The notes under the pieces are model-generated. The model worked only from the letters and a program-made list of their open reading frames with translations, was not told the origin of the DNA and did not search any database. Below, piece after piece: positions 45,144 through 62,201 of a stretch of DNA of 64,000 bases; within the stretch, counting starts at the first letter, position 1; every line of letters starts with the position of its first letter. This DNA comes from Plumapathes pennacea (lineage: Eukaryota > Cnidaria > Anthozoa > Antipatharia > Myriopathidae). The position numbers were made by a program, and so were the translations under genes. Location: NCBI GenBank assembly GCA_964036295.1, contig OZ038472.1, forward strand, positions 1,178,001-1,242,000. The letters run 5' to 3'.

Positions 45144-48100
45144 ATGAAAGTTTTCCTTCTCTGTTCGGCCGTTGTTCTTTTGTTGCTGGGAACTGTACAG
45201 TCGGAGGAAAACGAAGAAGCTTCTGAAGAGTCACAGAACAAGTTGTGGGGTATGAGATTTAGAGTTACACTCCTGTTTTTTTACTGTGCAATGAAATATT
45301 GTCTTAATTATAGGTAAAACTACGAACGACGTGCAAGCTTCATATGAACATGAACTGCACAGATTGATCGAACAAACAATAATTTTCAACCAGTGCGAAC
45401 TTAAAAACTTCGTCTGAAAGCAGCACTTACTACATGTCGTGTACTATCCCGTGGTTTAGTCAACTATTCACTAGTTTCACTCTAAGGTATATTTGTGCAT
45501 TTTACGTACATTGACATGACATGCATGCGGATGTACCACATCTATAATACGGCCATTACGTACACAGTTGTGTTAGTTACTTCGTGCCTTGGTACTTTAT
45601 TGTGAGTTTAACCAGCAGTAACCAAAGCAAGCTAATTTAAAAACTTTTTCCTTTTCTTCATTATATTGGCTCTGTCGCTTTCTTTGTTTGTGTTTGATGA
45701 CAGATACACTTAGCGACGATGTGGGACAACAAGAAAGTTATAGTGAAGAAGGTAACGTCAGAAAATTCCCCTTGCCTTTTTAGTATCAAAAGAGTATGTA
45801 CTAGCTAGCATTGTTACTTTTGCTATTAATATAATAACAATAGTTATTACTATTATTATTTACATTATTACTCGACGGTTTTACAACAAAGCGACATCTA
45901 CAAGCAGGCAAACATGTGGACATTATTCGAAATTCAAAAAAACGAAGAAGGAACATCTCTAAGTCAATGAAACTTAAAGATGTGCCACGCCTTGAATGCC
46001 ACTTAACCACAGCCTCACTGGTAACTGAAGCTGAGACAAAGCTGAAACAATGACGTCAATAGGCCACGAATATCTAGCATCTGACGTGCAAGCCCGACAC
46101 CATTAGTATTTTGTTTACTGACATGTCTCGGCTTATATAATTTGTACAACTAAATAACGCTGCTATCCTCAATGGTTTGTGTTCCCGTTGAGGGCAGAGA
46201 TTACCTGACCAGAGTACTTGGAACCAGACAAGTTTCAAATATTGGCTGAAATCTTTCTTATAAGAAACAAGATTGTAATAACTTCGAAATTACAATGCCC
46301 TTTTACTACAGAGTGTTCTCGACCACTTGGGATGGAAAACAGAGAAATACCAGATTCAAGCATCACTGCCTCTTCTGAATACAATGCAGCTCATGGGCCA
46401 AGCAACGCCCGACTGAACTTCAAGAGTGGGGGAGGAAAGACTGGCGCCTGGTCAGCAAAGGTCAATGACGTAAACCAGTGGCTACAGGTGGACTTAGGGC
46501 GCCTTCGCAAGATAACGTACATACAGACCCAAGGTCGACAAGATTACAATCAGTGGGTCACCAAATATGCTGTTAGTTACAGTCTGGACAACAAAAACTT
46601 CAAACCATATGAACGCGATGGAATAGAAGTGGTAAATATCATTGAACAAAAACTCTGAAGTGGTAATTATTATTGTTCTTGAAAGAAAAATGCACAATAA
46701 TGGCAACGACTTTAACCAGTTACATTTTAATGACAAAAAACATATTTTTGTTCCTTTTTAATTATATTCTGATATTGTTGGGATATTTGTTGTCGCACGA
46801 AGGCTATTAAATCAGTTGATTTATCAACAGGTAAAATCAAATTTACTAATACCAATAATAATAGCAGCTTCTTTTGAAACCTCTGTTTGTATGACTTAAT
46901 CAATATTTCTCTCTCTCTCCGTCTCTTTATTTGCTTATTTCTCGTTGTTTCTTTGTCTACGGAAAAGTGGGTCAATTTTTCCACTACCATGGCAACAATG
47001 TTAACGTTTAATATTACTTAATATCCAGATATTCAATGGAAACACGGACAGAGATACAATTGTCACCCAAGCTGTGCTCCCTCCCATTGTCGCCATTTAC
47101 ATTAGAATTCATCCCAGAGTTTGGAATGGACATATTTCAATGCGCGTTGAATTCTTTGGATGTTTAGGTAAATATCGTTTTTGGTCTGACTGATGTATAT
47201 ATATAAAGTACTCGTTAAATTACTTGTTAAATGATATAATGTAATTCTAATCTTTACTACATAAAAATCTCTTGTGATTAAATACTGCCACCGTTGTTAT
47301 CATGCGTGTAGTTTATTCGAAGGAATTAGTAGTACTTAATGACTTCAAAACCTCTTCTACAGAATGTGAAAAGCCACTTGGGATGGAAAACAGAGAAATA
47401 CCAGATTTAAGCATCACCGCCTCTTCTGAATACAATGCAGCTCATGGACCAAGCAACGCCCGACTGAACTTCAAGAGTGGTGGAGGAAAGACTGGCGCCT
47501 GGTCAGCAAAGGTCAATGACGTAAACCAGTGGCTACAGGTGGACCTGGGGCCTTCTCGCAAGATAACTTACATACAGACCCAAGGTCGACAAGATTACTA
47601 TCAGTGGGTCACCAAATATGCTGTTAGTTACAGTCTGGACAACAAAAACTTTAAACCATATGAACGCGATGGAAAAGAAGTGGTAATTATCATCCTTCTT
47701 GAAACATTGATTCACAATGTTAGGGGCGGTTACTAAGGTTAACCTTAATTACCTAAAGTTTAACAGCGACCAAAACATTATATATTCTCTTCAACTCTAA
47801 GAGGCATTGTTGTCGCACGATAAACAAGTCCGTTAATTCAAAGTTTACCAAAAAGAAATTAGAAATAACTAAGCAAGGCTCTTTTTCTTCCTTTTGCAAC
47901 TCAGTCTCGTGTGTTAGTCAATGTGTCTCTCTTCATCTCTATTTCCTCCTGTTTCACTCTGTTTCCTTGTCTATGTAAAATTGGGCCAATTTCTACTGCC
48001 ATGGCAACAACATTAAAGTTTATTATTACTCATTAGGTGTTCAATGGAAACACGGACAGAGACATCATCGTCTCTCAAAGAGTTGTTTCTCCTCCCATTG

Positions 48101-62201: not shown

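Follow-up and report, generated by a model that had tools for sequence, protein, structure and literature searches.

A putative chain of eight intelectin-like units encoded at a single locus of Plumapathes pennacea

Gene structure and history of the unit array

The stretch analyzed here comprises 64,000 nucleotides of contig OZ038472.1 of Plumapathes pennacea (the window; C11:1178001-1242000 in a 290 Mb genome of 24 contigs). It contains a gene, G1, that probably gives rise to one secreted protein with eight tandem copies of an intelectin-like unit. Rebuilding from the raw window yielded 33 exons (45144..62201, +), with GT...AG borders for all 32 introns and phases that agree throughout. The coding sequence consists of 2,480 codons and one stop codon at 62199-62201. 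A second script, based on splice sites by score and on the reading frame around homology matches, returned the identical exon set, and the coordinates, continuous frame and codon count of the original prediction were thus reproduced exactly.

G1 encodes, in this order, a signal-peptide-like exon, an acidic exon, three F5/8C domains, a D8C domain and eight units of three exons each (Table 1). The domain order and the number of units proposed earlier are therefore borne out by the rebuilt exons and, for F5/8C and D8C, also by Pfam: PF00754 exceeded its cut-off over three stretches (318 bits versus 28.2, E-value 4.8e-96), as did PF23283 (49.5 bits versus 27). The signal peptide was assigned by eye, without a predictor; after removal of 20 residues on this basis, the predicted mature chain has a mass of 271 kDa and a pI of 8.8.

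The G1 units, of about 231 residues, are built from exons a (49-52 nt), b (130 nt) and c (508-516 nt). Exon a is entered in phase 1, b in phase 2 and c in phase 0, and c is left in phase 1. Since a unit starts and ends in phase 1, whole units can be gained or lost without a frame shift. Exons b and c contribute six cysteines that are invariant in 18/18 units of the arrays described below. Counting one in exon a, each G1 unit has seven cysteines, an odd number that might permit bonding from unit to unit or from chain to chain.

Table 1. Features of G1 (window positions) and location of the other unit arrays (positions on C11)
Feature	Position	Exons	Strand	Basis or remarks
G1 exon 1, start codon and signal-peptide-like sequence	45144..45249		+	86% protein identity to start of next-door sister gene
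G1 exon 2, acidic, 48 nt	45704..45751		+	93% protein identity in sister gene and in C6 paralogue
F5/8C domain 1	46312..47167	46312-46631, 47029-47167	+	splicing, Pfam
F5/8C domain 2	47363..48181	47363-47682, 48037-48181	+	splicing, Pfam
F5/8C domain 3	48632..49315	48632-48954, 49177-49315	+	splicing, Pfam
D8C (uromodulin-like)	49610..49969	single exon	+	PF23283, E-value 4.9e-13
Unit 1, first type, donor T|GTAAGA at end	50565..52059	50565-50613, 51053-51182, 51552-52059	+	splicing, tree
Unit 2, middle type, donor T|GTAAGA at end	52458..53456	52458-52509, 52730-52859, 52946-53456	+	splicing, tree
Unit 3, middle type, donor T|GTAAGA at end	53786..54809	53786-53837, 54083-54212, 54299-54809	+	splicing, tree
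Unit 4, middle type, donor T|GTAAGA at end	55159..56182	55159-55210, 55456-55585, 55672-56182	+	splicing, tree
Unit 5, middle type, donor T|GTAAGA at end	56633..57657	56633-56684, 56931-57060, 57147-57657	+	splicing, tree
Unit 6, middle type, donor T|GTAAGA at end	58315..59339	58315-58366, 58613-58742, 58829-59339	+	splicing, tree
Unit 7, middle type, donor T|GTAAGA at end	59613..60637	59613-59664, 59911-60040, 60127-60637	+	splicing, tree
Unit 8, last type, includes stop codon	60845..62201	60845-60896, 61317-61446, 61686-62201	+	splicing, tree
AATAAA, candidate poly(A) signal, 240 nt past stop	62441..62446		+	sequence
G2, next gene downstream	1244282-1259472			signal peptide and acidic exon similar to those of G1, 4 F5/8C, D8C, 4 units; 1,715 codons, no internal stop
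G3	1974142-1967266		-	signal-peptide-like exon followed by a small exon and 4 units; 956 codons, no internal stop
G4	about 1977868-1981847			F5/8C exons and 2 units; homology matches, not spliced through, first exon unsettled

Across the genome, 90 rows match exon c of the unit. Four arrays of units were found, all on C11, with eight units in G1, four in G2, four in G3 and two in G4. Unit chains of differing length thus follow different heads in this genome; for G3, no F5/8C or D8C domain of its own was seen in the genome matches around the locus. G2 was also considered as a haplotype duplicate of G1, an explanation that was rejected, as the two differ in unit number (8 versus 4), in F5/8C number (3 versus 4) and in their exons.

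To follow the history of the units, a DNA tree was built from a codon alignment of 22 of them (18 array units and 4 from elsewhere). The last units of the four genes form one group (100/100); for the middle units, each gene has a group of its own (G1 100/99, G2 100/97, G3 98/95). This grouping indicates that the first units of the four genes correspond to each other by position, as do the last units, and that multiplication or homogenisation of the middle unit took place separately from gene to gene, with six copies in G1, two in G2, two in G3 and none in G4. Two aspects of the tree speak less clearly for this history: the first units group at modest support (85/78, below the star threshold of the program), and a unit from C8:17.4 Mb, on a long branch and of uncertain placement, falls near the first units, with the first and middle units.

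Exons b and c of G1 units 2-7 are 95.9-99.7% identical and the encoded protein differs at 6 columns. The dN/dS ratios among these units are 0.00-0.29 over 15 pairs, and the units are, by this codon comparison, under purifying selection. Middle units of different genes (G1 unit 3 and G2 unit 2) are 93% identical in exons and 53% in the a-b intron, so the exons were held while the a-b intron drifted. Between G1 units 2 and 3, the first 170 nt of the c-a intron are 100% identical versus 88% for the a-b intron; between units 3 and 4, the a-b intron is 99% and the c-a intron 90% identical. Such block-wise shifts would fit unequal exchange or conversion with shifting ends. The near-identical middle units, their dN/dS ratios and the same plan next door in G2 argue that the G1 pattern is not due to chance.

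Six of the seven inter-unit introns of G1 (52.35-59.61 kb) contain TTTA microsatellites of 57-438 nt. In the intron between F5/8C domains 2 and 3, an (ATT)65 array runs without interruption from window position 48186 to 48379. Both kinds of microsatellite are possible hotspots for unit duplication.

Related modules also occur in other combinations. A head-only paralogue at G000:C6:11648932-11655973 has the acidic exon, five F5/8C domains and D8C, with 60-93% protein identity by exon; no exon c match was found in the 10 kb beyond C6:11646001, and none nearby in the genome-wide rows. Between G3 and G4, a broken first-type unit with stops and frame breaks (G000:C11:1975205-1976597) follows just after an F5/8C exon match, and this copy also ends in a donor-like sequence (AGTAAGG). 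At C8:17.4 Mb (G000:C8:17415539-17419564, also C8:17448685 and 17489501), each of the units ending in a donor has an F5/8C match on its own strand, about 1.5-2 kb further downstream; the module order is thus reversed relative to G1. Both head domains are hugely expanded in the genome, with at least 150 matches for D8C (best 150 of 241 candidates scored) and at least 172 for F5/8C (best 150 of 1,240 candidates scored). Upstream of G1 (window 20932-44169), D8C exons are matched at nine separate places on the + strand. The left end of the window (1-9837), 35 kb upstream of G1, is filled by a 334-bp satellite in about 29 copies that are arranged head to tail and 96% alike.

Identity of the unit and related proteins

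The unit belongs to a family of anthozoan proteins annotated as "skeletal organic matrix protein 5-like" (SOMP5-like; best match 321 bits, 58% identity over 92%). A search restricted to proteins of about 128-406 residues, with room for one unit, identified 2,072 relatives at E<=1e-3 among 2,254 candidates. For the 120 of them that were listed, identity to unit 8 was 47-72%, mostly 53-63%, and those with names were mainly scleractinian. No Pfam family for the unit was above cut-off in the scanned sequences (head with unit 1, unit 3 and unit 8), none of which reached the gathering score of Fibrinogen_C (PF00147); 4/61 unit relatives matched this family at E<=0.01.

When a single unit was the query, no intelectin was found among solved structures. 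A profile of 61 relatives did match intelectins by the N-terminal segment (7e1e, E-value 3e-4; 4wmq, E-value 0.005), and its HHalign comparison with human intelectin-1 (ITLN1) gave a probability of 95.6% over 92 columns. The unit and the intelectins (ITLN1, XEEL and the 7e1e serum lectin) share an N-terminal SCKEI...YC-M-(G)GGGWTLV segment. The intelectin structures differ in having one domain per chain, and the remainder of that domain has no detectable alignment to the unit. The earlier description of the units as fibrinogen/intelectin-like therefore holds as a remote N-terminal resemblance that appears through the profile of relatives, but not in Pfam or with a single unit as query. The word lectin needs the same qualification, as the alignment ends short of the ligand-site residues. 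We regard intelectin-like as a fair lead for the unit. Remote, hard-to-detect FReD/intelectin families have been described in placozoans (PMC6321704).

Two of these results weaken the case for a role of G1 in recognition. The closest relatives that have names are labelled skeletal matrix proteins, which would allow a structural role instead, and the intelectin alignment is confined to 92 columns on the N-terminal side, with no ligand-site residue within reach. In that case, G1 might encode a structural component of the matrix or of cnidocytes that serves, as other SOMP5-like proteins do, as a scaffold for cross-linking and not as a lectin for recognition. Two papers point in this direction: the egg proteins listed for Euphyllia include a SOMP5 sequence (PMC7579821), and Nematostella FREPs are reported in mature cnidocytes (PMC12549020, which also places uromodulin in the adult mesoglea). 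On the other hand, the family names derive from similarity, and scaffold and recognition functions overlap. A structural role of this kind is conceivable, although we think it rather unlikely.

Larger relatives were sought among proteins of about 0.7-2.3 thousand residues (27 relatives) and about 1.4-4.3 thousand residues (4 relatives, two of them shared, 29 in total); the searches scored the 7,989 and 7,990 candidates sharing most words, so that absence from them is not proof of absence. In a scan of the 29 proteins with the unit profile, 19 had one full or partial unit and 8 had two. The two-unit proteins comprise three from Stylophora/Pocillopora (P0003, P0005; P0006) and five of bacterial or unnamed origin (P0004, P0007, P0008, P0025, P0028). 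In addition, P0002 from Pocillopora has two units and fragments of a third, and P0001 from Paramuricea has four partial units. P0008 and P0025 are named as Myxococcales, and two-unit chains in bacteria could reflect a very old family or inter-domain transfer. D8C was found in none of the 10 proteins of this set that were scanned with Pfam.

The closest layout is that of LOC144636260 and LOC144636259 of Oculina patagonica (P0011, P0012), which share with G1 tandem F5/8C domains (four there) and a C-terminal unit, but have an EGF segment (weak to clear match) in place of D8C, and a single unit. The predicted multi-unit proteins have more than one unit in common with G1; their N-terminal modules are EGF, other or none known, they contain at most two full-length units, and some of the models are partial. 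The SOMP5-like relatives share the unit, yet their searched lengths fit just one, whereas G1 chains eight behind F5/8C and D8C. To our knowledge, FREPs have one fibrinogen domain per chain. FREPs of molluscs (PMC12074976) and Nematostella (PMC12549020) are likewise secreted, fibrinogen-related and members of expanded families; G1 differs by many near-identical units that are held alike and not diversified.

In the titles and abstract beginnings that were searched, no polypeptide with several intelectin-like domains was described. The claim that no described protein has this architecture thus stands for the proteins and papers searched. The plan itself is not unique, since G2 has the same order, G3 and G4 have arrays behind other N-termini, and two-unit proteins are predicted in corals and bacteria. 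The domains, the family and two-unit chains were already known as predictions; an eight-unit chain with fixed ends and a multiplied middle is, as far as searched, undescribed.

One transcript or several

We examined 74 of the 90 exon c rows (18 array units, 2 rows of the broken copy and 54 others); 16 mostly partial rows were left out, and the broken copy was excluded from the tree and the counts. Exon c is followed by the donor T|GTAAGA in 14/14 non-terminal units (7+3+3+1 in the four arrays), and TAA comes right after GYIFV-V/M in the terminal units of 4/4 arrays. Of the 54 units elsewhere in the genome, which served as a control, 51/54 have a stop within a few codons and 3/54 have a donor. 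The three exceptions are the C8:17.4 Mb genes with their downstream F5/8C matches, so that the donor there too accompanies further coding exons. The contrast between donor and stop is strong (Fisher P 2e-12), although the donors are related by descent and the value is descriptive rather than a count of independent events.

Candidate poly(A) signals are distributed accordingly. None of the 14 inter-unit introns, which span 4,542 nt as cut, contains AATAAA (3.05 expected, P 0.036). After the stop codon of 4/4 terminal units, the signal occurs at a distance of 57-332 nt (1.4 expected, P 0.01). G1 has one further AATAAA, at 51254 within the b-c intron of unit 1, and none in its seven inter-unit introns. 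Through their splice sites, the units join into a single uninterrupted reading frame, as expected of a tandem-repeat lectin. Donors, poly(A) signals and ancestry together strongly suggest a single transcript for G1, and the single locus of the original prediction is in this sense well, if indirectly, supported.

Some observations are less favorable to a single eight-unit product. The P values for AATAAA are modest, and ATTAAA, a weaker poly(A) signal, occurs in 4/14 inter-unit introns. A retained inter-unit intron would lead to a stop after 3-10 codons in 14/14 cases, which makes shorter products possible. Finally, if the preceding intron remained unspliced, G1 units 3-7 would be preceded by an in-frame ATG and a hydrophobic leader of 26-154 residues encoded by TTTA repeats; the leader of unit 7, with 27 residues, resembles a signal peptide. 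Internal starts in G1 are therefore conceivable.

On these grounds, G1 could produce a ladder of isoforms with one to eight units, by unit skipping or intron retention, with the eight-unit form perhaps a minor one. Any set of units could be skipped in frame, as all are of phase 1-1, and the early stops in retained introns would suit truncated forms. The lack of AATAAA in all 14 inter-unit introns and the identical donor after all 14 units speak against it, and we consider such a ladder unlikely.

Still less probable is that tandem single-unit genes or partial duplicates have been joined on paper, or that units are expressed from internal starts. It is true that the 51 stop-ended units elsewhere stand on their own, that the G1 units arose by recent tandem duplication, some of their intron blocks being 99-100% identical, and that the ATG leaders before units 3-7, combined with retention of the downstream intron, give closed reading frames. 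But non-terminal array units have a donor where units elsewhere have a stop, AATAAA is missing between them, and first and last units have positional counterparts in four genes. ATG leaders were found neither before G1 units 2 and 8 nor in any of the 7 inter-unit introns of G2-G4. Because TTTA reads FIYL in any forward frame and leaders are missing in 9/14 introns, we take them, with their hydrophobicity, as a by-product of the repeat. With the signal-peptide exons of G1 and G3 as queries, nothing similar was seen on the + strand between units (20 best matches).

An assembly artefact, with units collapsed or falsely expanded and a true count other than eight, is very improbable: units 2-6 are very alike and separated by TTTA microsatellites of up to 438 nt, but the copies differ by substitutions (the b and c exons as given above, the a-b introns being 85.8-99.2% identical), the six inter-unit introns each have their own microsatellite length, the sister gene differs in its number of units and its exons have diverged, and the contig is chromosome-sized (16.4 Mb).

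Proposed protein and its significance

With the frame, splice sites, conservation, first/middle/last ancestry and selection of the units as observed above, the reading that we moderately favor is that of one gene for a secreted multi-unit chain, derived from a phase 1-1 cassette and working as an extracellular cross-linking agglutinin or opsonin. The secreted protein would have about 2,460 residues after signal removal, with three F5/8C domains, one D8C domain and eight intelectin-like/SOMP5-like units. In the symmetric exon cassette, conserved first and last units would flank a middle unit that was tandemly duplicated to six copies. As these six are nearly identical, they would be expected to provide avidity for one repetitive ligand, for example a glycan carried by microbes, mucus, the egg coat or the matrix. 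The head, with its F5/8C and D8C domains, may serve as an anchor or as a second-recognition module. Glycan binding and agglutination by the chain are moderately well suggested by family resemblance.

A more speculative extension, to which we give limited credence, is that valency is set by cassette copy number. The ends would be fixed, and the middle unit would be gained, lost or homogenised in three-exon blocks, possibly with variation between individuals, by unit skipping or by internal starts. The outcome would be graded binding strengths for one ligand, not diversified sites. Across the paralogues, gene duplication seems to alter how many probable sugar-binding units are present.

Many lectins gain multivalency by subunit assembly. 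Here, multivalency appears to be encoded in one gene as repeats of a three-exon domain, kept near-identical through purifying selection and the recency of their duplication. As arrays of this type may be divided or merged by gene predictors, multi-unit members of a large family labelled as skeletal matrix proteins may be undercounted. With eight, four, four and two units in a single genome, the arrays would offer a natural series for the effect of valency on the recognition of microbes or symbionts.
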